This document shows, one piece after another, positions 6,771 to 23,058 of a DNA stretch of 23,090 nucleotides. Every line of letters begins with the position of its first letter. The stretch's first letter is position 1. The position numbers and the translations under genes are program-made. Under the pieces are notes generated by a model. That model had not been told where the DNA came from. It made no database searches and was given only the letters and a program-made list of their open reading frames with translations. The DNA comes from a virus, in the IMG/VR virus record IMGVR_UViG_3300030090_003009, positions 1 through 23,090 of that record; one strand, 5' to 3'.

Positions 6771-8222
6771 TTAAGATTTCTTGATTAACATGTATCTGTT
6801 AGCCGCAAATCCTTCAAAACCTCTTTCACATCTGTAGTGCGATTGTAGCACGTCAGTAGTGTTAGTTTTGTTTTGTAGAACAGCAGAACCAGTTAACCAG
6901 TGCTCCATATCTCTAGAATAACCATTAGCAGCTTTATATCGTATTCTTAACGATGGAATACTTTCACCAGACTTAGCGTCTTTTTGTGTGTCCATAGGAA
7001 TACAAACACCATATCCATTGTAGTTGAATCCAGAAGCTCCTAATAATCTAGGGTGGTTAAATAAATCATAAGTTTTCTTATGAAATGTATATCCTCCTCT
7101 AGTAAATGAGTTGAAACCTAAGTTTAACGCCATGTTTTTATTATTTTGGAAAGCACCATAGTTAGCACCACCAGCAGCATAAGCTCCTTGAGCAGCTAAT
7201 AAGTCATCAATATCTAAAGATAGATTGATACCTGAATACATAGCGTATTCTTTAGCACCTCTATATTTATCTAATGATTTGATCATAGCGTCAAAGTCTG
7301 CCATTGTGATAGAAGCAGAACCTAAGTCCATAGACTGTCCGTTAGACTCTATCCAAGGAAGTAAACCTTGAGTTCCTCTAAGTGTTGCGTTACTTTGTGC
7401 AGTACCACTTTTGAAAGTTGTATTAACACCCTCTAAAGTAGTATTGTCAATATCCTCACCTAACATCATCATGATCTCAGAATAATCTAAGAATCTCTTA
7501 TATGTATCAGCTTCACCTTTTAAGTACCATACAAAACCTGAGCCCATTTTTTCATTGTCAACTTTTACATATACAATGTTTGTAGCCTCAGAACCTGTTA
7601 CCTCAAAAGATTCTTTTAAAATCATACACTTATTAGAGTATTCGTGAATTAATGGAGATAAGCCATCTGGTTGTATACCACCTTCTGGGTGAGCATTACC
7701 AATAATTGCAAATTCATAATCCACTCCTGTTGATTTAGATCCAGCACCACCAGAAGCTATTGAATACATTGTTACTGTATAAGTAGAGTCTGAAGGCATT
7801 GAAGTTGCTGTTACATAAAACATATCACCATCTTTATCTCTTAAGATGTCACCAGGTCTAACTGGAGTGTACTCATCTGATCCAATAAAGTTTGAGGAAT
7901 AACCTCCTGATGCTTGAAGAGCCATTGTTATTGAGGCTGTTCCTGGAGAAGCTCCAGGGAATCGACCCGTTACACTATTGTGAACAAAAGTTTCTTCGTA
8001 GTGCTCAAACGTAGTGTTTGAAGAAGGAGCCTTTGATCCCATTAGCTCCATAAGTCCCGTAATACCTTGCTCGCCATAACGCTTAACAAGTTTTTCAGAG
8101 ACATCTCTTTGTCTGAATTGACCTGAAGTAGCTGTTAAAGCACTTACATAGTTCTCATTAGTTGCAATTTGAACTGCTGAAGGCTTTATTAACATACTAG
8201 CAGGTATATTTACTGTTGCCAT
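6771..8222 (-). CDS. Major capsid protein (probable HK97 fold, 483 aa)
   Basis: This protein should form the icosahedral shell. The position is decisive: it follows TerL, portal and an acidic scaffold-like protein and precedes small structural genes. The sequence agrees. An N-terminal arm leads to KRYGEQGITGLMELMGSKAP near residues 48-66 and a strand-rich EHYEETFVH segment, a pattern I recall from crAss-like capsid proteins. A long mixed alpha/beta body follows (for example a helix near ITMADFDAMIKSLDKYRG and a strand near GYTFHKKTYDLF), with no enzymatic motif. The length is near that of crAss-like capsid proteins (about 490). Codon use appears more regular and less A/T-biased than in neighbours, as expected for an abundant protein (impression only). 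The ATG at 8222 is preceded by an A/T-only leader. Confidence 0.8.
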   Translation of the reverse strand: MATVNIPASMLIKPSAVQIATNENYVSALTATSGQFRQRDVSEKLVKRYGEQGITGLMELMGSKAPSSNTTFEHYEETFVHNSVTGRFPGASPGTASITMALQASGGYSSNFIGSDEYTPVRPGDILRDKDGDMFYVTATSMPSDSTYTVTMYSIASGGAGSKSTGVDYEFAIIGNAHPEGGIQPDGLSPLIHEYSNKCMILKESFEVTGSEATNIVYVKVDNEKMGSGFVWYLKGEADTYKRFLDYSEIMMMLGEDIDNTTLEGVNTTFKSGTAQSNATLRGTQGLLPWIESNGQSMDLGSASITMADFDAMIKSLDKYRGAKEYAMYSGINLSLDIDDLLAAQGAYAAGGANYGAFQNNKNMALNLGFNSFTRGGYTFHKKTYDLFNHPRLLGASGFNYNGYGVCIPMDTQKDAKSGESIPSLRIRYKAANGYSRDMEHWLTGSAVLQNKTNTTDVLQSHYRCERGFEGFAANRYMLIKKS

Positions 8223-9461: not shown

Positions 9462-11987
9462 TTAAGCACCCTTAATTGGTGCTTGTGGCATTGGCCTTGG
9501 TGCACCACCTTGTAGAGGCATTTGTGGATCTGGCATAGATTGCATCATAGATGGCTGTTTAGAAAAAGAAAAATCACTTTTAATATTTGGTATGCCACTC
9601 ATCATTCCATCAGGGTTTTCTATTGGCGGCCCATCACCCTTTCTTTGTTCTATCATTCTTGATTGATAATGAGCGCTTTTTTCTATACCCTGTTGTTTAG
9701 CGTCACCTTGTATTTTATGTCCAGCAACCTTAGCTTGATTACCTAAATGTATTTCGTTCATTCTTCTTTTATGAGCAGCCTCTTCAAGTTGTGCTTTTAA
9801 TTGAAACTCTAATTGCATTTTTTGAGCCTCTATTTGAGCCTCTGCTTGCATTTTTTGTATTTCTATTTGAGCTTCCATTTGCATTTCTTGTTGTTTCGCC
9901 TGAGCTGCCATCATTACAGATTGTTGTTGCTGTTGAGAATTTGCTTGTGATGCAGCTTTTTGCATAGCCATTTGTTCTTGCTGATATTTCTTTCTTCTCA
10001 TAACAAGAAGCTGATTAGCTAGTTTAACGTTATTTATATCCCTAATCATAATAGCATCCTCAACCCTAAGTTCTTTTTGAGCTATTGACACTTGTATATT
10101 TTGTTCTAGCCTAGCTCTCTCCTCCTCATCAGGTTCTACTTGTATAGATATACCAAAGTCCTTAAAAGAAACATCTTTATTTATCTTTATAGTTTTAACA
10201 ACCGCACTACCTAAAGCTGATATATAACCATCAATAGGTTTATCATATTCTACAATATCCTGTAACTTTAAACATATAGACTCCGATAGTTTTTTTACTA
10301 TTTTTAAATAACCATCATTAACACTTCTGGTAGCGTTATTAGAAGCTAATAACTGCATTTTTTGAATACCAACCAAAGCTTCGCTAGATGGCTTAGTCCC
10401 ATCTCTAGCCTCATTAACACCAGTTACATCCCTAATCATTTGTAGGTTATGTTGATATATTTGTATTAACTGCAACATGTCTCTACCTATACCATTTTCT
10501 AACTCTTGTATAGGAGCTGCATTAGCGGCCATACCCTCATCATCCATTCTTCTATAATATATATTACCAGTTTGATCAAATATTTCTTGAAGCTCCATTG
10601 GTGTAAATGTACCGCCATCTCCTTTTGATACATTTTCTAAAGAACCAACTTCAAATGCAGCACCTTTTGGTCTAGCCTTAGCCATAACTTGTTGCATTTT
10701 TAAATGAGCTAATTGTATCTGATCTCCAAAAGGAATCATTCTTTGAACTAAAGAAACGTTTTGCATCTTATGAATATTTGGAGTATAAATCATATAAGAT
10801 AAAGAAACTTCTGAAAGATTTGATTTTTTTCTAGACATGTTTTTAGCAAGACCATAATCAAAAATATAATCTGTTCCAACTATATATTTACCACTGTACA
10901 CAACTTTAACTGTGTTTGCTACAACCTCTCTTTTGTTTTTTGATTTTTTAGGCTTTTTGTAAGCATAACCTCTTTTATTAACAGTATAACCACCATATTT
11001 ATTTTCTTTTTTCTCGTACTTCATATCATAGGTAGATATAAACTCTGAATCCATTATCTCTATAGAAAATTTATCATACTCATGGTTATAATCACCTATT
11101 CCAGAAAATCTACCATTATTCATATAATCAGTATCTTCTGTTTTTTTTGCGTAATTTTCTGCTATATCTTTATACTCTTCTTCTGTAAATTGATCTCCAG
11201 CCATTTGCTTTAACTCAGCTATAGAAATTGTGTAAACCTCTCCAGCATGTTGTATGTTTTTATAATCAGAATAATTAGTGTGTGATGTAACTAAATTTGC
11301 TGGATCAACATATCTTATTTTAACACCGTAAGATGGGTCTATATAAGTTTTTAGAGAAGCTGTGCCTATTACAACCATATCTCTAATTAATTTTTTCCTC
11401 ATCTCTTCAAAATCATTTTGTTGCATAACAAATTTGATTCCGTTTTCTATAGCAATTTCTTGAGCTTGTTTGTAGTTTAAAGACATAAATAATTTTATCT
11501 CTTCATAATCTTCTGCAATAAATCCTGGCTTATTATAATTTTGACCTGTAGCTTTAGACATCTTAGCTTTTATAGGAGCCGATAACATATCTGCTAACAT
11601 TTGCCTAGCATCTTTTCTTCTAACATCTACGGATATTGGGTCTATAGCATCAGCTTTAACAGTGTGTTCTTGATTTATAATACTACCACAAACAACATCT
11701 ACAAATTTAGGTATAATCGAAACTGGAGTCCAATCTATATTCATATAAGAACTGTCCCCCTGAACATCTAATAAATCTTTATATTTACCAACACTTTGAG
11801 TTCCTTCGGCATAAGATCTCATTTTTTCAAATCTTCTTTTTCTGTCTTGATAGTTCATATGACTGTTGTTTTTCCAGTCATGATACATTCTTTTAAAATA
11901 CTGAAGACCGTATTCATTTTTAGCTTTATCTTCGTTGCTCACAAAAATGGTTGGATAACCACCTATAGTTTCAAATTGTGTTTTCAT
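9462..11987 (-). CDS. Portal protein with hendecad coiled-coil tail (841 aa)
   Basis: This protein should form the dodecameric DNA channel at one capsid vertex. It starts directly after the TerL stop (TAG then ATG at 11987), the classic TerL-portal pair, and its size (841 aa) suits crAss-like and related large portals (about 700-850). Body features typical of portals are present: an N-terminal helical region (QYFKRMYHDWKNNSHMNYQD), a wing-like beta segment (KYIVGTDYIFDYGLAKNMSR) and a helix-rich stem/clip region (RMIPFGDQIQLAHLKMQQVM, then DVTGVNEARDGTKPSSEALV). Residues about 650-760 are Gln/Met/Glu-rich and hold an 11-residue repeat at 703-735, a probable barrel or coiled coil reaching into the head. 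The last 70 residues are Pro/Met/Gly-rich and likely disordered. No enzyme motif is expected or seen. Confidence 0.82.
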   Translation of the reverse strand: MKTQFETIGGYPTIFVSNEDKAKNEYGLQYFKRMYHDWKNNSHMNYQDRKRRFEKMRSYAEGTQSVGKYKDLLDVQGDSSYMNIDWTPVSIIPKFVDVVCGSIINQEHTVKADAIDPISVDVRRKDARQMLADMLSAPIKAKMSKATGQNYNKPGFIAEDYEEIKLFMSLNYKQAQEIAIENGIKFVMQQNDFEEMRKKLIRDMVVIGTASLKTYIDPSYGVKIRYVDPANLVTSHTNYSDYKNIQHAGEVYTISIAELKQMAGDQFTEEEYKDIAENYAKKTEDTDYMNNGRFSGIGDYNHEYDKFSIEIMDSEFISTYDMKYEKKENKYGGYTVNKRGYAYKKPKKSKNKREVVANTVKVVYSGKYIVGTDYIFDYGLAKNMSRKKSNLSEVSLSYMIYTPNIHKMQNVSLVQRMIPFGDQIQLAHLKMQQVMAKARPKGAAFEVGSLENVSKGDGGTFTPMELQEIFDQTGNIYYRRMDDEGMAANAAPIQELENGIGRDMLQLIQIYQHNLQMIRDVTGVNEARDGTKPSSEALVGIQKMQLLASNNATRSVNDGYLKIVKKLSESICLKLQDIVEYDKPIDGYISALGSAVVKTIKINKDVSFKDFGISIQVEPDEEERARLEQNIQVSIAQKELRVEDAIMIRDINNVKLANQLLVMRRKKYQQEQMAMQKAASQANSQQQQQSVMMAAQAKQQEMQMEAQIEIQKMQAEAQIEAQKMQLEFQLKAQLEEAAHKRRMNEIHLGNQAKVAGHKIQGDAKQQGIEKSAHYQSRMIEQRKGDGPPIENPDGMMSGIPNIKSDFSFSKQPSMMQSMPDPQMPLQGGAPRPMPQAPIKGA
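9783..9881 (-). repeat. Three 33-bp tandem repeats encoding 11-residue coiled-coil units in the portal
   Basis: On the minus strand three successive 33-base units (9881-9849, 9848-9816, 9815-9783) encode QMEAQIEIQKM, QAEAQIEAQKM and QLEFQLKAQLE. The first two are close copies at both DNA and protein level; the third is diverged. The 11-residue period is a hendecad, typical of straight or slightly right-handed coiled coils, and fits the long helical barrel some portals extend into the head. Confidence 0.75.
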
Positions 11988-14015
11988 CTATATTCTCTTA
12001 GATATTAATCCTGAATTATTATATTTTTTTATAAAGTTAATACTTATTTTCTTAACTTTTTTTACTGTAACATGTTTTTGAGCAGCTAATAGAGCTAAGC
12101 TTGAGGCTACAGTAGCGTCATACTTTGTTCTGTTATCTGGCTCAAAACGACTCCAATCATCAAGTAATCTGTTAAAATAACATTTACCCATCTCCATTTT
12201 TTCTAAATCAAGTATACCTATATAATCATACACATATGAAGCTACTGCCTCTGTTTGTGCATTCAATACAGCTACACCTGTAGAAGGTATTCCTTTTGTT
12301 TTTTGCTTTCTACTACTATCTGTATGGGTTGATTCTGGTCTATCCATTAGGTATTCATAATAACCTCTTCTTTCAAAATATTTTATAATACCTATTTTAT
12401 TATTCTCAACCAATATCTGACAACCATAAAAAACACAAGTTTTAAGAACATCTTCATAAAACATTTCTGCTTTAGGCGGTCTAGCTATATACTCACAAAC
12501 AAAAACATTAGAAAAATCATCCATCATTGTAAACTTCTTATAAACATAACAAGCAGCATCTGATCTTCTACCATCTGTTGTTGTGTCATGATCATAAGGG
12601 TCACATCCAGCAACCATTTCTATATCATTTCCTGGGCACTTTTTAGTACCCTTCATTTTTATATTATTTCTTCTATCCTCTGGTGGCAACCAAGATATCC
12701 TCCATCTTCCTGTAGAACCTGGTCTCCAAACAACCTTAGTGTCTTTTATACCATCTCTCCATATAAAATCACCTTTTACTACTAAACCTTGTGACTCTTC
12801 ATTATAATCCATTTGTTGATATATTCTTTCTACATCAAAAGGACTGTGTCTTGAGTCACTTCTAAAAGCTTCTTCAACAGTAAAAGGCCTTTGTCTTTTT
12901 TCTTCAGATAATTTAGTGGTATTTTTCTTGTAAGCATCTCTTACGTTCTGAAGATACTCTTTAGCACCAATATTTTTACCTATAAATTTAGCCTGCTCTT
13001 TTGTTGGGGTATCAATAACAGACATCCCATACTCATCTATAAAACCCTCATACCCATCATAAGCTGGAGTAAAATAACTATACATTCCAGACCTTGTTCT
13101 ACCATTACCATCTCTTTCCTCTATACTACTATCGTCCCATATATTTTTAAATCTTTCCCCTCCAGAATCAGCCATTTCGTTTACTGTAGTGGGCATAAAA
13201 CATTTTCCTATTATTTTATCACCTAGCGTTAAACAAGATCTAACAACTTGCCAATTTTTTTCTACGTTAGCGTCTACCCATTTTCCTCCCTCATCACATA
13301 AATACCTAACTAACTTAACAGAGTCATAAGAATTATCTTTTGTGTTTCTCCAATCTATCTTACTATTTAAAGCTTCTGACTTAACAATCTTTTGATAGTT
13401 TTTAGATATTTTTTGACCTGGAGCATTAAAGCTTAATGTGCTTTTTGGATTATCACTACCATCTATAATAGGTTGAAAGAAAAAAGGAAGGTGCCTAAAC
13501 ATATAAACTAACTTGTCAGTAAATAATGATTTAGCATCCACACCTGTTTTACTTATAATACCACCATGTGAATTATATCTAGATGTTATTTCATACAACA
13601 ACATAGCTGCCCCTTTATAAGAAGCACCCTCTCTACGATGTTTTACCATAACCATACCAAAGCACTCTGGATCGTTTTTACATATTTCCCAAAAAATAAA
13701 GAACCTTCTGTCCCTATCTCTATATTGAGGATAACCTATATCTAGTTTACACCAGTTTAAATAATAGTAATGCTCTCCTGTTATATAGGTAGGCTTGCCA
13801 TTGTTCATAAACCAAACACCGTTTTTTCTTCTATCAAACTCTGTGCTTATGAAATCTGAATGGCTAGCGGCAGTTTCTTCTGAAAGGGTTTCTGGTATTT
13901 CTACTCTCCTCCATTTTTGATCTTTCTTTTTTAGATCAGAAAAAAGAATATCTTTCTTCTTTGGTTTAGGAGGAAGATTGAAATATAATCCATTTACTCT
14001 TATTTTGCCTTCCAT
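11988..14015 (-). CDS. terL: Terminase large subunit (TerL, packaging ATPase-nuclease, 675 aa)
   Basis: Cuts concatemeric DNA and pumps it into the procapsid by ATP hydrolysis, docked on the portal. ATPase signs: a Walker A-like KHRREGASY (about 125-133) with Arg and Gly at the loop and a non-standard Ala, a Walker B VRYLCDE (236-242, D241 and E242), and a coupling-like segment MPTTVNE (274-280). The nuclease half shows the expected acidic residues of the RNase H-like fold: D472 in GCDPYD, E537 in ILVENN and D633 in KYDATVASSLALL. The length is usual for the family. An N-terminal aromatic stretch (GEHYYYLNWCKLDIGY) is also seen in TerL relatives of crAss-like phages. Its promoter box lies 22 bases upstream, and it abuts the portal gene. 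Confidence 0.93.
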   Translation of the reverse strand: MEGKIRVNGLYFNLPPKPKKKDILFSDLKKKDQKWRRVEIPETLSEETAASHSDFISTEFDRRKNGVWFMNNGKPTYITGEHYYYLNWCKLDIGYPQYRDRDRRFFIFWEICKNDPECFGMVMVKHRREGASYKGAAMLLYEITSRYNSHGGIISKTGVDAKSLFTDKLVYMFRHLPFFFQPIIDGSDNPKSTLSFNAPGQKISKNYQKIVKSEALNSKIDWRNTKDNSYDSVKLVRYLCDEGGKWVDANVEKNWQVVRSCLTLGDKIIGKCFMPTTVNEMADSGGERFKNIWDDSSIEERDGNGRTRSGMYSYFTPAYDGYEGFIDEYGMSVIDTPTKEQAKFIGKNIGAKEYLQNVRDAYKKNTTKLSEEKRQRPFTVEEAFRSDSRHSPFDVERIYQQMDYNEESQGLVVKGDFIWRDGIKDTKVVWRPGSTGRWRISWLPPEDRRNNIKMKGTKKCPGNDIEMVAGCDPYDHDTTTDGRRSDAACYVYKKFTMMDDFSNVFVCEYIARPPKAEMFYEDVLKTCVFYGCQILVENNKIGIIKYFERRGYYEYLMDRPESTHTDSSRKQKTKGIPSTGVAVLNAQTEAVASYVYDYIGILDLEKMEMGKCYFNRLLDDWSRFEPDNRTKYDATVASSLALLAAQKHVTVKKVKKISINFIKKYNNSGLISKRI

Positions 14016-14063: not shown

Positions 14064-14354
14064 CTATTTTTTAGCGTATTTTTCTGAGAATCCAGCCTGA
14101 AATGAGTTTTCTTCTTTGTCTATATTTTGCTCAATATTTTCTTCTTCTATTTGTTTTTGAATTTTATTTATAGACATTAAAATTTCTTGTGCATCCATGA
14201 AGCATTCTTTTTTTGCCTTCATAGCGTTTCTAGCTTTATCATCTTGTAATTCTGGGTCTACGGGTTTTTTAACTTCTTCAAGCAAAAGATCAAATGCTTG
14301 TTTACCCGACTCTATTAACTCTTCTAATCTTTTTTTTACGTCTAAGCTTCTCAT
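14064..14354 (-). CDS. Small helical protein upstream of terL, small-terminase candidate (96 aa)
   Basis: The sequence is almost wholly alpha-helical and charged: KKRLEELIESGKQAFDLLLE, then a PVDPEL turn, DDKARNAMKAKKECFMDAQE and a coiled-coil-like helix around ILMSINKIQKQIEEENIE, with a short polar tail. No HTH is certain. Its slot directly before terL (48 bases, with a promoter between) is where small terminase subunits usually lie, and the size and helical oligomer-type sequence would fit TerS. That is inference from order alone. It starts inside the preceding 96-aa gene (53-base overlap); the next Met is about 45 codons in, so the overlapping start is probably the true one. Confidence 0.45.
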   Translation of the reverse strand: MRSLDVKKRLEELIESGKQAFDLLLEEVKKPVDPELQDDKARNAMKAKKECFMDAQEILMSINKIQKQIEEENIEQNIDKEENSFQAGFSEKYAKK

Positions 14355-14592
14355 TTTTCTTAAATTTTAATAATTTTGAACAGCGTTCATACATTTCCAT
14401 ATCCTCGTAATATTGTATCATAAGGTCTAATACATCATTAAATATAGAGCTTTTAAGATCTTTTTCGCTAACAACGTTCCATAAGATATAAGGAACTTCA
14501 CTTGATTCTAGTATTTCGTCTAACGATTTCTTACCCATAATAAGGTCATATGAATTTTCCATACATATGTCTAAGATTTCGTAATCCTCCAT
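14302..14592 (-). CDS. Unrecognised small acidic protein with basic tail (96 aa)
   Basis: I do not recognise it beyond a vague match to small late proteins of Bacteroidota phages. Residues 1-70 are acidic and helical (MEDYEILDICMENSYDLIMG; KSLDEILESSEVPYILWNVV), with a Cys at residue 10 and aromatic residues that suggest a compact fold. The last 20 residues are nearly all basic (KLLKFKKNEKLRRKKK). That basic tail is exactly the part encoded in the 53-base overlap with the next gene, so it may partly reflect the overlap's constraint. The ATG at 14592 lies one base from the co-chaperonin stop, indicating translational coupling. Confidence 0.5.
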   Translation of the reverse strand: MEDYEILDICMENSYDLIMGKKSLDEILESSEVPYILWNVVSEKDLKSSIFNDVLDLMIQYYEDMEMYERCSKLLKFKKNEKLRRKKKIRRVNRVG

Positions 14593-14593
14593 A

Positions 14594-15175
14594 CTATTTT
14601 TCTATTTTAGCTAATATATCAAAATTTCTCATCCTCATCAACTTTTTACCCATAATATCCATGTCATACTCTGAGTTTTCTGAAAAAATAACCTCATCAC
14701 CCTCTTTTAGCCCTTGTTTTTTAGACCAATCACTCATGTGTCTTATATATCCATGTAGCTTAACCTCTTCCATATAAGGTTTGGTTATTAAACCAGATTC
14801 GGTTTTAAAGTCTTTTTCGTCTTCCATTTTTTGTTCTACAAAATTCCAATAGTGTAACATTTTTAATTTACCATTTCTAACCCTACAATAAATGTCGCTC
14901 CAATGAATTTTATAAACAAGTTCTTGTTCATAAAACTTTACTTCGTTTTCATTTTCAGTTAAAAAGTGATGACAATATACCGTGTCTCCTTCCTTTATAT
15001 CTAGTTTAACCCCCTTAGAAAGTGATATAGGAGTCTCTACAACAACTCCATATTGTCTAGCTAACTTCATTGGATCGTAGCTAGTATCTATTACTAATTC
15101 AGTATTTCCTATAATTGTAGTGTCTTCAGTTTTTTTATCAACCTTGATAAAAAAGTGATCTTTAATTGGTTTCAT
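14594..15175 (-). CDS. Two-domain GroES-like (Cpn10) co-chaperonin (193 aa)
   Basis: Probable GroEL partner for folding phage capsid or fibre proteins, the role of T4 gp31. It appears to hold two Cpn10 domains. Domain 1 (about 1-98) starts PIKDHFFIKVDK, has a loop with ELVID (26-30), the YGVVVE strand (42-47), KEGDTVYC (61-68) and ends near WSDIYCRV. Domain 2 (about 103-193) gives the clearer match: KTESGLITK (124-132) at the place of the GroES mobile loop, HGYIRHM (141-147), GLKEGDEVIF (155-164), and the family's typical end LMRMRNFDILAKIE (179-192). Single-domain GroES has about 97 residues, so 193 is two copies. It lies in a tight block upstream of terL and the capsid genes. No GroEL is in the window. 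A chloroplast-Cpn20-like fused form is the closest known architecture. Confidence 0.78.
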   Translation of the reverse strand: MKPIKDHFFIKVDKKTEDTTIIGNTELVIDTSYDPMKLARQYGVVVETPISLSKGVKLDIKEGDTVYCHHFLTENENEVKFYEQELVYKIHWSDIYCRVRNGKLKMLHYWNFVEQKMEDEKDFKTESGLITKPYMEEVKLHGYIRHMSDWSKKQGLKEGDEVIFSENSEYDMDIMGKKLMRMRNFDILAKIEK

Positions 15176-15178
15176 ATA

Positions 15179-15460
15179 TTATTGTACTTCGTAAGAATCT
15201 CTATCCTCAACATCAAACTCTATAGCTGTCGGCTGATCGAAAAACCTTTTCCAAGGCCTTGAGAATTTATCTCCATTTGATTTTATATATACATCATAAA
15301 CTACTTGTTGGTGTTTGTACCACGCTGCCTCATCTTGTATTATAGCAGTAATCTCTACAGATCCGCCTAACATTTTTTGACCAACTTTATAAGTTAATCC
15401 TTGCTTTAAGTCTCCTATTGTTATTTTTCTTATTATAGGATTTATTGATTCAATTTCCAT
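15179..15460 (-). CDS. Unrecognised small protein between DUF1599-like and GroES-like genes (93 aa)
   Basis: I do not recognise the family. The protein is a compact mix of strands and helices: PIIRKITIGDLKQGLTYKVG, a strand around SVEITAIIQDEAAWYKHQQ, then VYDVYIKSNGDKFSRPWKRF and an acidic end. The aromatic-rich centre and absence of low complexity suggest a folded domain. It has no Cys, signal peptide or membrane segment. It starts one base after the DUF1599-like stop and ends 3 bases before the GroES-like ATG, so all three are probably translated together. A role beside the co-chaperonin or in nucleotide metabolism would be guesswork. Confidence 0.5.
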   Translation of the reverse strand: MEIESINPIIRKITIGDLKQGLTYKVGQKMLGGSVEITAIIQDEAAWYKHQQVVYDVYIKSNGDKFSRPWKRFFDQPTAIEFDVEDRDSYEVQ

Positions 15461-15461
15461 T

Positions 15462-15842
15462 TTATTTATTTTTTTCTGAGTAGTAAAAATCTAAATCATC
15501 CACCTCACCCATTGTTCTACCATTTATTGTAACATAACCACCATTCTCAATAATTTCTTTTTCTGATTTATATTCCTCGTCTTTCTCTATTATTAAAGCA
15601 ACTTTATAAAGAATAAGATATCCTATTAAATCAGATATAGTGTCCTCTGTTTCATCATTAACTCCTACGTTTTGTATACGCATAAGTTTATCATCTATTC
15701 TTGATCCTAATGATTCAAAAACATCTCCTTTTGAAAATACACCTGATGGGCTTAGAGCGGAATTTCCGTAGTCTCTATTTTTTTGTAGAAGTAGATCTTT
15801 AACGTCCTCACAGACCTTTTTGATTAGTTTTTCGGTTTCCAT
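15462..15842 (-). CDS. DUF1599-like (nucleotide-modification-associated) protein (126 aa)
   Basis: Residues about 1-90 match the pattern I recall for DUF1599: LLLQKNRDYGNSAL (17-30), then RIDDKLMRIQN (48-58) and a helix DTISDLIGYLILYKVAL (67-83). The family is common in phages and has been linked by genome context to modified DNA bases or nucleotide handling; its exact reaction is not settled. The C-terminal 40 residues are charged and include NGGYVTINGRTMG, probably a short added strand pair. It sits at the head of the small-gene block before the co-chaperonin, and its leader holds an A/T run with two AAATT units. It is an unusual neighbour for virion genes. Confidence 0.65.
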   Translation of the reverse strand: METEKLIKKVCEDVKDLLLQKNRDYGNSALSPSGVFSKGDVFESLGSRIDDKLMRIQNVGVNDETEDTISDLIGYLILYKVALIIEKDEEYKSEKEIIENGGYVTINGRTMGEVDDLDFYYSEKNK

Positions 15843-17289: not shown

Positions 17290-18153
17290 TTATGATATAC
17301 TATGTTTGTCCTTTAAAAAATTTTCCATTAAAACAATATCAACATCTGATAAAGCCGCATCAAAAACAACCACTTCGTATACAAGTGAGTTTAAATAATT
17401 AGCTGAACCATCTTTTGATCCTAACATAACTTTAACATCTGCGTCATTTGGTGAAAGATCAATGTCATGATCATCAGTAGCCCCATTTGTTACTCCATCT
17501 GATGTGTCACCATCTCTATATAAAGATCCGCTACTAGCTCCATCTAAATCAACAGTCCAAAGTTCTTTATTAGTTGTTATGTCTATACCACTATTAATTA
17601 TACTATTTGTTCTAGCGGTATTGTTTTGAAGGTGAAATTGCCATCTATCATCAGTAGCGTTTTTTACATATATAGACATCCTATCAGCGGTACTAGAAGT
17701 AGTTGTGTGAAATAAATATTCATCATCACTGACGCTAGTTCCTGGTAACTCTACCACATAAAATATAGTAAGTTCTCTGCCATTTAGCGTTGTGTTAGAA
17801 AGTGTGTTAGTAGCCACATTACCAATTCCGTTAGTAGCTTTTATATGATCGTTAGAGCCATCAAACAGTGCTCCTCCAGTCCCAGCTGTTTTATATAAAG
17901 GTCTATTAGCCTCAGTTCCTTGTTGTAAAAAAATTCCTAAAGCGTTAGCTGGAGTTCCTATTAAACTGTAGGCTTTATTATTTATTCTGTATATTTTATC
18001 ATCGTTTGAAGAAACCTTAGTAGTACCAGCGTCTGTAAACATAGTATCTGTATCAGTAAAATCCCACCATCCAACTAATGTTGATATTTGTTCTGGAGAA
18101 AAACCTGATGCGGGTGCAGATCCCGAAGTTATACTATTTCCTAAACCTAACAT
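17290..18153 (-). CDS. LamG/concanavalin-like surface protein (287 aa)
   Basis: This is probably a virion-surface lectin-type protein. After a short low-complexity start (MLGLGNSITSGSAPASG), residues about 20-280 look like one jelly-roll domain: LVGWWDFTDTDTMFTDAG near 26-43 is a very common opening of such domains in marine phage and bacterial adhesins. Strands such as LTIFYVVELPGTSV, DRMSIYVKNATDDRWQFHLQ and ELWTVDLDGASSGSLYRDGD follow, and it closes with SLVYEVVVFDAALSDVDIVL. There are many Asp/Asn/Thr/Gly turns and no Cys-rich motif. The gene lies between the 120-aa and 460-aa surface proteins. A binding or decoration role is inferred from domain type and neighbours. Confidence 0.6.
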   Translation of the reverse strand: MLGLGNSITSGSAPASGFSPEQISTLVGWWDFTDTDTMFTDAGTTKVSSNDDKIYRINNKAYSLIGTPANALGIFLQQGTEANRPLYKTAGTGGALFDGSNDHIKATNGIGNVATNTLSNTTLNGRELTIFYVVELPGTSVSDDEYLFHTTTSSTADRMSIYVKNATDDRWQFHLQNNTARTNSIINSGIDITTNKELWTVDLDGASSGSLYRDGDTSDGVTNGATDDHDIDLSPNDADVKVMLGSKDGSANYLNSLVYEVVVFDAALSDVDIVLMENFLKDKHSIS

Positions 18154-18962: not shown

Positions 18963-20386
18963 AATTCAAAAAAAAATATAGAGCTGGAGGCAAAACAGAA
19001 AAGCCTATGGTTTATGCTCAAGAAACTACTCAAGTACCATCAACAACAGTCGATCCTGCTATCGACCCTACCCGTGCAAATCCTTATGCTGGAATGAGAG
19101 CAGGAGAAAGGCAATACCAATATAGTTTAGATCAGTATCAAAAAGAAAATCCTGGTAGAAGACTTGCTAGTTATGCTAATTTATTTTCAGAAAGTTTACC
19201 TAATATAACTTTTGTAAATGAGGATTTTGATGCAGTTAAAGAGTTTGCAACTAAACAAGGCAAAGATCCTAGTGACTTTCCTTTTGGTATAAACACAGGT
19301 GTTTTTAGTGACCCATCTCTTAAAAGATTTGACAGAATAGGTAAGTCTGCTGGTTTTGAGCAATACGCTAATTTATTTAATAGGGTAACTGGTCGGGAGT
19401 TAGGTTCTGAGAATAGAATGACTTCTGACTCTATTCAGAGTTTATATAATAATCCTAATGAATTATATAACACTTTTAAAAACATGAATACAAAGGGAAA
19501 GAGGGGAAGAGATGAGTGGATAGGAGAAAACTCTGGCTTTGATTTTGACGATAATGTTTTTACAAAAACAAATAGACAAACAGGAGAAAAAGAAAATGTT
19601 CCTGGTTTTACATACACTTTTAGTGACAAAGAAAGAAGTAGAGGTAACCCCTTATTTAATGATACAAGGCTTACAAATTTATACGAAAAGGTTAGTACAG
19701 GTAGTTTAGTTTTTGATATGAATGGTAATCTTATGGATTTCACCAGAAACGATGATACCTCCGATTTTAATAAGCTTTCAGATACTGAAAGAAAATCATT
19801 AGAGCTTTATGTTAAAAATAAAGGTTTACAGACTATTGTTACTCAAGGTAAGACTGGTCAGGAGTTAGGTCAATTTGCAGATCCTGGTATAAATATACCA
19901 TCAGTGGGACTTGAAAGTGTTGGTACTGTTACTCCTACACAAGGAATGACGAATTTAATGCCAACATTTATAGACAAAGATGACCAGGTAGGGGGAGATA
20001 TAAAACAAATAGATCTTGAAGAAAGTAAGCAAATAATGTCTGGAAATGTTCCTTCAGGAACAGATGATCCACCACCTCCACCATCAGATGATACAGATAA
20101 AGAGGGTGATACGGATAAAGAACCAAAAGCACCAGAGGATAAGGAAACAGAGAAAAAAGAGGAAGTAGTAGAAGAAAAATTTACTATAGGTGGAAAGGAG
20201 TATGAAAGCGAAGAGGAGGCTAAAAGAATGCTTGAAAAAGAACCTCAAGGTCAACTATCTGATGAAGAGTATGATTTCGTATATGGATACAAACCTCAAG
20301 CGGGTAAAAAAGGAATGAAGGTACCTGGATATAAAAAAGGTGGAATACAATTAAAAAAGAAAAAAAGAAAAAGTTATGGCAATTAA
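18959..20386 (+). CDS. Lys/Gly-rich protein with acidic linker, cargo candidate (475 aa)
   Basis: I do not recognise it. I chose the ATG at 18959, not the ATG 45 bases upstream, because it overlaps the previous stop as ATGA and gives a tidy start, MKFKKKYRAGGKTEKP. Residues about 20-330 look globular with many charged and Asn/Phe residues. Residues about 345-410 are a Pro/Asp/Glu-rich acidic linker (DDPPPPPSDDTDKEGD). Then come IGGKEYESEEEAKRM and the motif PQGQLSDEEYDFVYGY (429-444), followed by GMKVPGYKKGGIQLKKKKRK at the basic end. That motif recurs in the next protein. The K/Y-GG patches at both ends resemble those in other aquatic phage proteins of unknown function. An internal virion or packaged protein is one possibility. 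Confidence 0.5.
   Translation: MKFKKKYRAGGKTEKPMVYAQETTQVPSTTVDPAIDPTRANPYAGMRAGERQYQYSLDQYQKENPGRRLASYANLFSESLPNITFVNEDFDAVKEFATKQGKDPSDFPFGINTGVFSDPSLKRFDRIGKSAGFEQYANLFNRVTGRELGSENRMTSDSIQSLYNNPNELYNTFKNMNTKGKRGRDEWIGENSGFDFDDNVFTKTNRQTGEKENVPGFTYTFSDKERSRGNPLFNDTRLTNLYEKVSTGSLVFDMNGNLMDFTRNDDTSDFNKLSDTERKSLELYVKNKGLQTIVTQGKTGQELGQFADPGINIPSVGLESVGTVTPTQGMTNLMPTFIDKDDQVGGDIKQIDLEESKQIMSGNVPSGTDDPPPPPSDDTDKEGDTDKEPKAPEDKETEKKEEVVEEKFTIGGKEYESEEEAKRMLEKEPQGQLSDEEYDFVYGYKPQAGKKGMKVPGYKKGGIQLKKKKRKSYGN
20243..20290 (+). other. Shared PQxxL..EEYxF motif, copy 1
   Basis: Encodes PQGQLSDEEYDFVYGY in the 475-aa protein. Copy 2, PQTELTNEEYEFIQKY, is at 21687-21734 in the next gene. Eight of 16 positions are identical and four more are conservative changes, and a Leu four residues before the PQ is also shared. 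It lies near each C-terminus. Confidence 0.7.
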
Positions 20387-21740
20387 TATAAACCCAGAAG
20401 ATTTAGAAAATATAGCACAATTAATACAGGACAGCACTGATCCTACAGATAAAGGTAGAGAAAAAAGAAAAAGGTCTGTTGAAAGTATCCTTTTATATGA
20501 CTGGCAAAAAATGTCTGAAAAGGAAAAAAAAGAGGCTGCTGCTAGTGTAGGGCTACCTGTTGATGAGGTTGACAATAGACTTAGAGAAAGAAGTGTTGAA
20601 ACTAGAATGGAATTTAATGTTGAAGGTAATCCTAAAAAAACTAAGTTTTTACAGAGATCAGCTCAAGCTATGATAGATGAGTTTGGGGGTAAGGATTTAG
20701 AAAATAATAGAAGGTTTGATCGTGATATTAAATTATTTGAAAACGCTTACGGTAAAGAAAACGCTGATAAGTTAGTAAGTTTATTAGCACCTAAAATTGA
20801 TTCTAACGTTTCTGCACCAAAAGATTCTAAATCTACTATGGTGGGCCCAGGTGATTTAATCCCATCTGAGGAAGAGCTTATGAAAAAGGATAAAGAGATG
20901 TTGGAGGAAAAGCTAATGAATGATCCTGGGGTACAAGCTTTTATTAACTACATAATGCCCAGCTCTACACCTGAAGAAAAGAAGCTTAAAGAGTTTGAAG
21001 TAGTTGATGAAGATGAAGAAGATGAAACTGAAGTTGTTGAAACTAAAAAAAGCTCTAGTGATCCATTTGGGGGGTCATCTAAAAAAGATAAAAAAGAAGA
21101 AGTTGAAACAGGTTCAAGCACTCCTATGTTTATGACTCCAGTAGATCCATTTGGCCCTGAAGAAATGATTATGGGTTCAGAGGGTTCTGAGTCTGCTGAT
21201 CAAGGGGGTCCTGATCCAATAGAAGGTGACATGCCAGAAATCGTTCTTACACCTGAAGATGAAAAGAAAGAAAAGGGTAGAGGTAAGCAAAAGATAAAAG
21301 ACTTCTTTAAAAAATTTAAAAGGAAAAATAAAAAGAAGAAGAATAGAGGTAACGATATGGATATGCCTGAGTTTGATCCTGCTGATGAAATGACTAAATA
21401 CATGGAAAACGGGGGTAAGCTAGTGGGAGATCAGTATAAAATTGATATGAATAAAGATGGTAAAATATCTGGAGCTGATTTTAAAATGATGAAAGAAGGA
21501 GGTAAAATGAAGTATATGGGTGGTGGAATGATGAAACCTTTTATGGCGTACTTAATGGGGGGTAAGTCTCCAAAATATGCTATGGGGGGTATGACAGATG
21601 AAGGGCCTGATGAGATGAAATTACAAACATCTAAGCCTGTAATTACACCAGAGATACAAGCTAGATTAAATCAACTTAGATCAAAGCCTCAAACTGAATT
21701 AACAAATGAGGAGTATGAATTTATACAAAAATATAGTTAA
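20376..21740 (+). CDS. Acidic/basic modular protein with EF-hand-like loop and GG motifs (454 aa)
   Basis: I do not recognise the whole protein. The N-terminal third is charged and helical. The middle (about 205-300) is acidic, low-complexity and likely disordered (DEDEEDETEVVETKKSSSD). A Lys-rich stretch follows near 305-325 (KKFKRKNKKKKNRGN). Residues about 357-369 (21444-21482) read DMNKDGKISGADF, a good match to the calcium-binding EF-hand/dockerin-type loop. After it come Gly-Gly patches with Met and Tyr (KEGGKMKYMGGGMMKPFMAY; LMGGKSPKYAMGG). It ends with PQTELTNEEYEFIQKYS, the motif shared with the preceding protein. It starts inside that gene (11-base overlap, ATGGCAATTAA), so the two are co-translated and probably work together. 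No enzyme motif is visible. Confidence 0.5.
   Translation: MAININPEDLENIAQLIQDSTDPTDKGREKRKRSVESILLYDWQKMSEKEKKEAAASVGLPVDEVDNRLRERSVETRMEFNVEGNPKKTKFLQRSAQAMIDEFGGKDLENNRRFDRDIKLFENAYGKENADKLVSLLAPKIDSNVSAPKDSKSTMVGPGDLIPSEEELMKKDKEMLEEKLMNDPGVQAFINYIMPSSTPEEKKLKEFEVVDEDEEDETEVVETKKSSSDPFGGSSKKDKKEEVETGSSTPMFMTPVDPFGPEEMIMGSEGSESADQGGPDPIEGDMPEIVLTPEDEKKEKGRGKQKIKDFFKKFKRKNKKKKNRGNDMDMPEFDPADEMTKYMENGGKLVGDQYKIDMNKDGKISGADFKMMKEGGKMKYMGGGMMKPFMAYLMGGKSPKYAMGGMTDEGPDEMKLQTSKPVITPEIQARLNQLRSKPQTELTNEEYEFIQKYS
21687..21734 (+). other. Shared PQxxL..EEYxF motif, copy 2
   Basis: Encodes PQTELTNEEYEFIQKY, the last but one residues of the 454-aa protein, matching copy 1 at 20243-20290. Here it follows the Gly-Gly patches, while in the first protein it precedes them, so the two elements behave as separate modules. 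Confidence 0.7.
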
Positions 21741-21743
21741 GAC

Positions 21744-22193
21744 ATGAATGAGTCAATGGTTATAATAATAGAGGGCGTTAGCGATCACTCTATGGACATG
21801 CAAAGAGATGGTAAGGGTGGTGAGATGGATGTCATGGGTTATAAAACTCAAAACTTTCATATATGCCCTGGGGCTACTGCTGCTTTTTCAGAACTTGTAA
21901 ACAGAGGTTTTAGAGGTGATGAGGCTGAGATGCTAGCACAAATAGCTATGTTAGTTGATGATTATTTAGGAATAGAGGTCATGGCTTTACAACAAGGTGG
22001 TACCGATATGGCTAATACAAGAAAGATGATAGATATGGGTAACGCAGCCTTTTATCACTTAGGTGCTTTTGCTTTAGAAGTAGAGGATGAAACCATTGTT
22101 TCTTTATTTGACTTTATGCCAGATCATATTCTAAAAGTAGTTGAGATCTCTACAGAAGAGATTAAGGACGATGAGGACTGCGGTTGTCATTAA
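21744..22193 (+). CDS. Unrecognised acidic protein with Cys/His tail (149 aa)
   Basis: I do not recognise the family. The body is acidic and mixed: a strand SMVIIIEGVSD, Met/Asp/Gly-rich turns (MDMQRDGKGGEMDVMGYKT), then helices (AAFSELVNRGFRGDEAEMLA; IAMLVDDYLGIEVMALQQGG) and ALEVEDETIVSLFDFMPDHI. The last residues, DEDCGCH, could bind a metal or form a disulfide. It begins 3 bases after the preceding stop, so it is the last gene of the plus-strand operon. Its final 32 bases lie on top of the end of the opposing HNH-like gene, and no terminator hairpin was seen between the two. A role with the two preceding proteins is likely but unknown. Confidence 0.5.
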   Translation: MNESMVIIIEGVSDHSMDMQRDGKGGEMDVMGYKTQNFHICPGATAAFSELVNRGFRGDEAEMLAQIAMLVDDYLGIEVMALQQGGTDMANTRKMIDMGNAAFYHLGAFALEVEDETIVSLFDFMPDHILKVVEISTEEIKDDEDCGCH

Positions 22194-22764: not shown

Positions 22765-23058
22765 TTATTTCTTTTTCTTTTTTACTCTAGTTTTACGTTT
22801 TTTTCTTTTTGATTTTTTGTTTACTTTAGTTTTCTTGTATTTACTAACTCTTCCCTTCTCATTCTTCTCCTTCTGTGCTCTTCGTTTTTCAGACGGGCTT
22901 AATTCACTCCACGTGGTAGGGGTGTCTTTAGAAATTCTTTTAGTAGGTCTAAAAGTATTCTCACCGCCACTATAATCCTTCTTGCCCTTTGGTGTACGCC
23001 AATCTTCTTTAAACCAACGCTTAAGTCTTAATCCAGCTTTTGTTTTACGTACAGCCAT
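22765..23058 (-). CDS. Very basic DUF5872-like protein (97 aa)
   Basis: The N-terminus, AGLRLKRWFKEDWRTPKGKK, followed by a Gly/Thr-rich central part and SELSPSEKRRAQKEKNEKGR, resembles small proteins I recall as DUF5872, whose core is 'GLKKWFxExWVxxxxPK' and then Ser/Pro-rich KR repeats. Function is unknown. The last 30 residues are almost all Lys and Arg (KKTKVNKKSKRKKRKTRVKK), so it is likely to bind DNA or RNA, for example as a histone-like or condensing protein. It overlaps the preceding stop by one base (TAATG) and lies one base before the 65-aa gene, in the right-hand minus operon. Confidence 0.55.
   Translation of the reverse strand: MAVRKTKAGLRLKRWFKEDWRTPKGKKDYSGGENTFRPTKRISKDTPTTWSELSPSEKRRAQKEKNEKGRVSKYKKTKVNKKSKRKKRKTRVKKKKK

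Follow-up and report, generated by a model that had tools for sequence, protein, structure and literature searches.

Bacterial GroES (PF00166) is a single Cpn10 domain of about 97 aa that works as a heptamer. Phages can encode this fold as well, and gp31 of phage T4, again a single-domain protein, serves the folding of the capsid protein gp23. In the literature consulted, proteins with Cpn10 domains in tandem are treated as characteristic of plastids and apicoplasts (PMC5780408, PMC3542282). Cpn20 of chloroplasts forms homo-oligomers, or joins single-domain Cpn10, in seven-domain rings (PMC5780408), and malarial cpn20 can substitute for GroES in E. coli (PMC3542282), which shows that GroEL can operate with a tandem Cpn10.

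Here we describe a gene of a marine phage whose 193-aa product shares the Cpn10 fold with GroES and gp31 but differs from both in having two domains. It was found in a stretch of 23,090 nucleotides (virus record IMGVR_UViG_3300030090_003009, positions 1 to 23,090), which is called the window below. The protein is confirmed to consist of two fused Cpn10 (GroES) domains, and it belongs to a phage family with two, in a few cases three, such domains, which represents a second, probably independent case of the tandem design. In the part of the open-access literature that was searched, no description of a phage tandem, double, fused or triple GroES or Cpn10 was found. Databases already name these proteins co-chaperonins, and what appears to be new is their architecture, their spread and the pattern in which they co-occur with other chaperonin genes. 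The reading that we favour, with some reserve, is that of a morphogenesis co-chaperonin, which would form a lid on host GroEL during the folding of phage proteins, most likely of the SU10-type capsid protein. Family members are small natural proteins with which the fit of even-domain lids on a seven-fold chaperonin can be tested, and in a phage setting they probably serve a single abundant client. The family also lets one ask why some phages retain a tandem lid alongside a GroEL and GroES of their own.

Two Cpn10 domains in one chain

The tandem Cpn10 gene occupies positions 14594..15175 on the minus strand, as defined by its open reading frame (ORF), Pfam and PHROG matches, structure match and dN/dS. 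An earlier note, made from the sequence alone, had reported a 193-aa ORF at these positions. The coordinates and the length stand, and the strand, which had been left unstated, is the minus strand, the plus strand over the same interval being riddled with stops. Against relatives at 77–88% identity, dN is 0.07–0.14 and dS is 0.65–1.6 (Nei-Gojobori), and purifying selection acts on both domains. A chance or spurious ORF is ruled out by the 34 aligned relatives together with the resulting dN/dS of about 0.1–0.2.

The Pfam Cpn10 model (PF00166, curated cut-off 21.1 bits) matches the whole protein in two stretches with 40.5 bits (E 2.9e-10). Scored alone, domain 2 (residues 102–193; 14597..14872, minus strand) reaches 28.9 bits (E 1.2e-6), above the cut-off, and it is the domain nearest to canonical GroES, with an hhalign E of 1e-10 against the single-domain protein. 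Domain 1 (residues 1–101; 14873..15175, minus strand) has diverged and scores 16.5 bits alone (E 0.0086), below the cut-off, which counts against the favoured reading. In profile–profile comparisons domain 1 scores 33.6 with domain 2 and 29.2 with GroES, and domain 2 scores 61.3 with GroES, while the highest score among 30 column-shuffled profiles per comparison was 20.6. All motifs quoted beforehand for the two halves were found (PIKDHFFIKV, ELVID, YGVVVE, KEGDTVY, SGLIT, KEGDEVIF and DILAKIE), and the proposal of two Cpn10 domains in tandem is borne out both by the profiles, which score above the shuffles, and by structure prediction. The description of Cpn10/GroES as a single domain of about 10 kDa does not apply to this protein, which has two domains in 193 aa. 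The alternative that only one half is a genuine Cpn10 domain is ruled out by the structure matches and the profile controls.

An AlphaFold2 single-chain model, with 34 family sequences from viral-contig loci as input alignment, has a pLDDT of 87.5 and a pTM of 0.81, and it predicts in each half the barrel that is also that of bacterial GroES. Residues 1–100 of the model align to GroES (8wuc_a) with Z 9.5 over 89 residues at 2.9 Å, and residues 104–193 align to GroES (4pko_O) with Z 9.1 over 83 residues at 3.2 Å. Two results had been named in advance as contrary to a tandem protein, namely a barrel in only one half and a first half without similarity to GroES; each half matched and neither result arose. 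Alcohol dehydrogenase and quinone reductase domains in the PDB also match the model (Z about 4–5), because these enzymes share the GroES-like fold. T4 gp31 resembles the model at the level of fold only, with Z 7.2–7.6 and 5–12% identity in structural alignments, and it is absent from the sequence matches to the PDB.

The top full-length match among solved structures is 7ekq_R, a chain named in its record as a Cpn20 co-chaperonin subunit, with Z 10.8 over 170 residues (1–192) and an rmsd of 5.0 Å, which is a loose match; the likeness to Cpn20 that had been guessed earlier thus reappears in the structural comparison. Chloroplast and apicoplast Cpn20 and the phage protein alike have two head-to-tail Cpn10 domains per chain, and the model predicts a similar relative placement of the two. 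The family profile scores 35.0 bits against bacterial GroES and 26.7 bits against 7ekq_R, the latter through domain 2 only, and since the sequence is nearer to bacterial GroES than to Cpn20, this comparison suggests a fusion independent of Cpn20. The Cpn20 chain of 7ekq belongs to a ClpP structure, and this best full-length match could be taken to mean that the phage protein caps a Clp-type protease. However, the match follows from the fold and the tandem layout, and with the profile preferring bacterial GroES we regard a protease cap as far-fetched.

Mobile loops and a conserved His-His pair

The mobile loop of domain 2, S-G-[IL]-x-x-K (residues 117–141; 14753..14827, minus strand), was located by alignment of the 34 relatives and of E. 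coli GroES, and its motif is shared with bacterial GroES. The fuller pattern is [TS]-x-[ST]-G-[IL]-x-x-K, in which G128 and K132 are invariant among the 34 relatives. Residue 129 is I or L and residue 130 is hydrophobic in all 34, and residue 131 varies, being T in the window protein and in 10 of the 34. Residues 129–131 (LIT) align with I25-V26-L27 of E. coli GroES. From alignment and model, the counterpart in domain 1 (residues 16–42; 15050..15130, minus strand) is a hairpin that bears the motif E-[LI]-x-[LMI]-[DNE]. All 34 relatives have a hydrophobic residue at position 27, and 33 of the 34 have L, M or I at position 29. This loop is longer than that of GroES, is modelled as a hairpin with a pLDDT of about 75, and aligns weakly to the GroES loop. 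The two hydrophobic tripeptides that seemed to be kept according to the earlier note are L-I-T (129–131), which sits in a clear GroES-type loop, and L-V-I (27–29), which sits in the longer, lower-confidence hairpin.

Domain 1 also carries a His-His pair (residues 69–70; 14966..14971, minus strand) after its GD-x-V strand, present in 34/34 of the close family. The pair, as GD-x-V-x-x-HH, is kept in the phi38:1, elemo, Panino and MW202828 proteins as well, and E. coli GroES is without a counterpart. It could point into the cavity or bind metal. In the tandem proteins of the Flavobacterium elemo phages, Maribacter phage Panino and MW202828 (loci L015:9959-10519, L085:8001-8540 and L086:8001-8546) the loop of domain 2 is mostly deleted, domain 1 is kept, and the gene still lies beside terL, for which a division of labour between the domains is a possible explanation. 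Because these distant relatives have lost most of the domain 2 loop, docking on GroEL through both loops is no constant trait of the family, and they too count against the lid reading.

The relatives that drop this loop and retain the gene, and the invariant His-His pair that E. coli GroES does not have, would both suit another explanation, in which the GroES fold is reused without GroEL, as an assembly factor whose loops bind terminase, portal or capsid. The strict linkage to terL and portal and the presence in some genomes of an additional GroES for the usual lid function, both described below, would fit it too. In the window's clade, however, the GroEL-contact loop of domain 2 ranks among the best conserved parts, and in phi18:3 mass spectrometry underlies the annotation of several virion proteins, whereas the co-chaperonin is annotated by similarity only and is thus in no way marked as belonging to the virion. 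We judge a GroEL-free assembly factor to be unlikely, although part of the family may have shifted to a GroEL-independent role, given the loss of the domain 2 loop in some relatives.

Family, spread and co-occurring chaperonin genes

The window protein matches PHROG_13932 (‘co-chaperonin GroES’) with residues 6–191 on profile positions 5–199 of 200 (E 1.1e-16). It had been presented as if it were a singular oddity, which it is not: the family is large and catalogued, and viral contigs yielded 13 relatives in a first scan, 89 in a profile scan and at least 365 matches in a wider scan. The ORFs taken from these loci are mostly 180–228 aa long, and those tested find a match in PHROG_13932, with Cellulophaga phage phi18:3 gp096 (E 5e-102) and phi38:1 gp089 (E 2e-82) as the strongest matches. 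These two PHROG_13932 proteins occupy the same place before terL and portal, and their records, which are silent on two domains, already call them co-chaperonin GroES or Cpn10. Identity between the window protein and the aligned annotated proteins of flavobacterial phages is 19–25%. The nearest terminase relatives in the phage collection are those of MW202828 and Flavobacterium phages, and a flavobacterial host is plausible from the terminase and co-chaperonin relatives. Bacterial genome contigs scanned with the family alignment for a prophage or host link gave pattern matches and zero relatives.

In nearly all distant members the domain 1 profile scores best on the first half and the domain 2 profile on the second, and the duplication therefore appears, on this sequence pattern, to be older than the spread of the family; domain 1 of phi18:3 is too diverged for assignment by domain profiles. 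Three relatives of about 290 aa have a third, C-terminal Cpn10-like region. It is clear in L134 (L134:3998-4867, 290 aa), which has three Pfam Cpn10 stretches with 70.7 bits in all, and whose third domain (204–290, model pLDDT 75.8) matches GroES 3nx6 at 1.6 Å over 66 residues. In L131 (L131:4001-4873, 291 aa) the third domain is backed by Pfam at 220–285, and in L139 (L139:3551-4414, 288 aa) the third region is indicated by length and a weak alignment only.

Other chaperonin genes accompany the tandem gene in some genomes. In earlier articles, chaperonin cpn10 counts as a core protein of Pervagoviridae (Bartlau and colleagues, PMC8776804), GroEL is reported in phages related to phi38:1 (Nishimura and colleagues, PMC5332604), and GroEL and GroES homologues are mentioned for Panino (PMC11590407). 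We find the tandem protein together with GroEL and a single-domain Cpn10 in phi38:1, elemoF, MW202828 and Panino. In phi18:3 and phi19:3 it occurs with a single-domain Cpn10 (85-aa frame), and a search of these two genomes for a GroEL match found none. A search for GroEL in contigs of the window's clade, some of 52–64 kb, also found none. One contig of this clade (G022, 62,996 bp) ends in exact 99-bp terminal repeats and so is probably a complete genome; its sole Cpn10 locus is the tandem gene. In another contig (G047, 74,729 bp, exact 60-bp terminal repeats) a triple gene is the only Cpn10 and GroEL was not found.

Because several relatives also carry a full GroEL/GroES pair, a simple substitution for GroES does not explain everything. 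By analogy, a lid of seven domains that combines tandem chains with host or phage GroES is plausible. A specific form of it would be a mixed-symmetry lid of three tandem chains and one single GroES (2+2+2+1=7), with triple-Cpn10 versions in other phages; the single GroES would be the phage's own in phi18:3 and phi19:3, and phages of the window's clade would take it from the host. This arrangement is possible and we propose it tentatively. If true, it would show the cavity two types of wall, and it could be adapted to the capsid protein. The protein could instead modify or inhibit host GroEL, an even-numbered or asymmetric lid diverting the chaperonin from host proteins during infection. Genomes without a GroEL of their own would depend on that of the host, and domain 1 has strongly diverged, both of which would agree with such a modifier. 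We nevertheless consider it quite improbable, given that the gene is placed in the packaging and capsid block and that malarial tandem cpn20 is a working lid (PMC3542282).

Gene neighbourhood and proposed role

The co-chaperonin gene lies within a run of minus-strand genes with short gaps or overlaps between them. The run includes ORFs at 15462-15842 and 15179-15460, the latter directly preceding the co-chaperonin gene. Two overlapping 96-aa ORFs with no assigned function lie between the co-chaperonin and terL, one at 14302..14592 (from the ORF list and Pfam and PHROG searches) and one at 14064..14354, and one base separates the co-chaperonin stop codon from the start codon of the first. On the same strand follow the large terminase subunit (11988..14015; PHROG_6681, E 3e-156), which has 39–43% identity to the best phage terminases found, the portal protein (9462..11987; PHROG_6547, E 2e-139), a 374-aa protein encoded between the portal and capsid genes, and the major capsid protein of SU10 type (6771..8222; PF17236, 35.5 bits with a cut-off of 24.1; PHROG_13704, E 7e-79). 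This synteny agrees with the earlier note, which had placed the gene just upstream of the terL, portal and capsid genes. A scan for promoters and terminators around the co-chaperonin gene gave counts at about chance level.

The same linkage is seen across the family. Of the 93 loci that could be tested, a few of which share a contig or come from nearly identical ones, 88 have a terminase match no more than 3 kb downstream of the co-chaperonin, and in the remaining five a terminase could not be recognised within the locus. Four annotated phage genomes show the tandem Cpn10 gene followed by terL, portal and structural genes. Placement in a morphogenesis block is a difference from Cpn20, and because the gene shares its run with those for packaging and capsid, co-expression with them is probable.

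As a morphogenesis co-chaperonin, three or four tandem chains, possibly with host single-domain GroES, would form a lid whose loops dock onto host GroEL, and the lid would enclose phage proteins so that they fold. The location in the morphogenesis block and the precedent of T4 gp31 and gp23 point to the SU10-type capsid protein as the most likely client. Binding to GroEL, the make-up of the ring and the identity of the client are inferences.

Other genes of the window include a possible virion surface protein with a laminin-G/concanavalin-like domain (PF13385, 29.1 bits; 17290-18153, minus strand) and a 454-aa acidic protein (20376-21740, plus strand) with a dockerin/EF-hand-like calcium motif near residues 339–373, under the Pfam cut-off. 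An HNH endonuclease (PHROG_23251, E 2e-33; PF01844; 22162-22566, minus strand) overlaps the end of a plus-strand ORF (21744-22193), and a very basic 97-aa protein with a lysine/arginine-rich tail (22765-23058, minus strand) matches DUF5872 with 46.7 bits.
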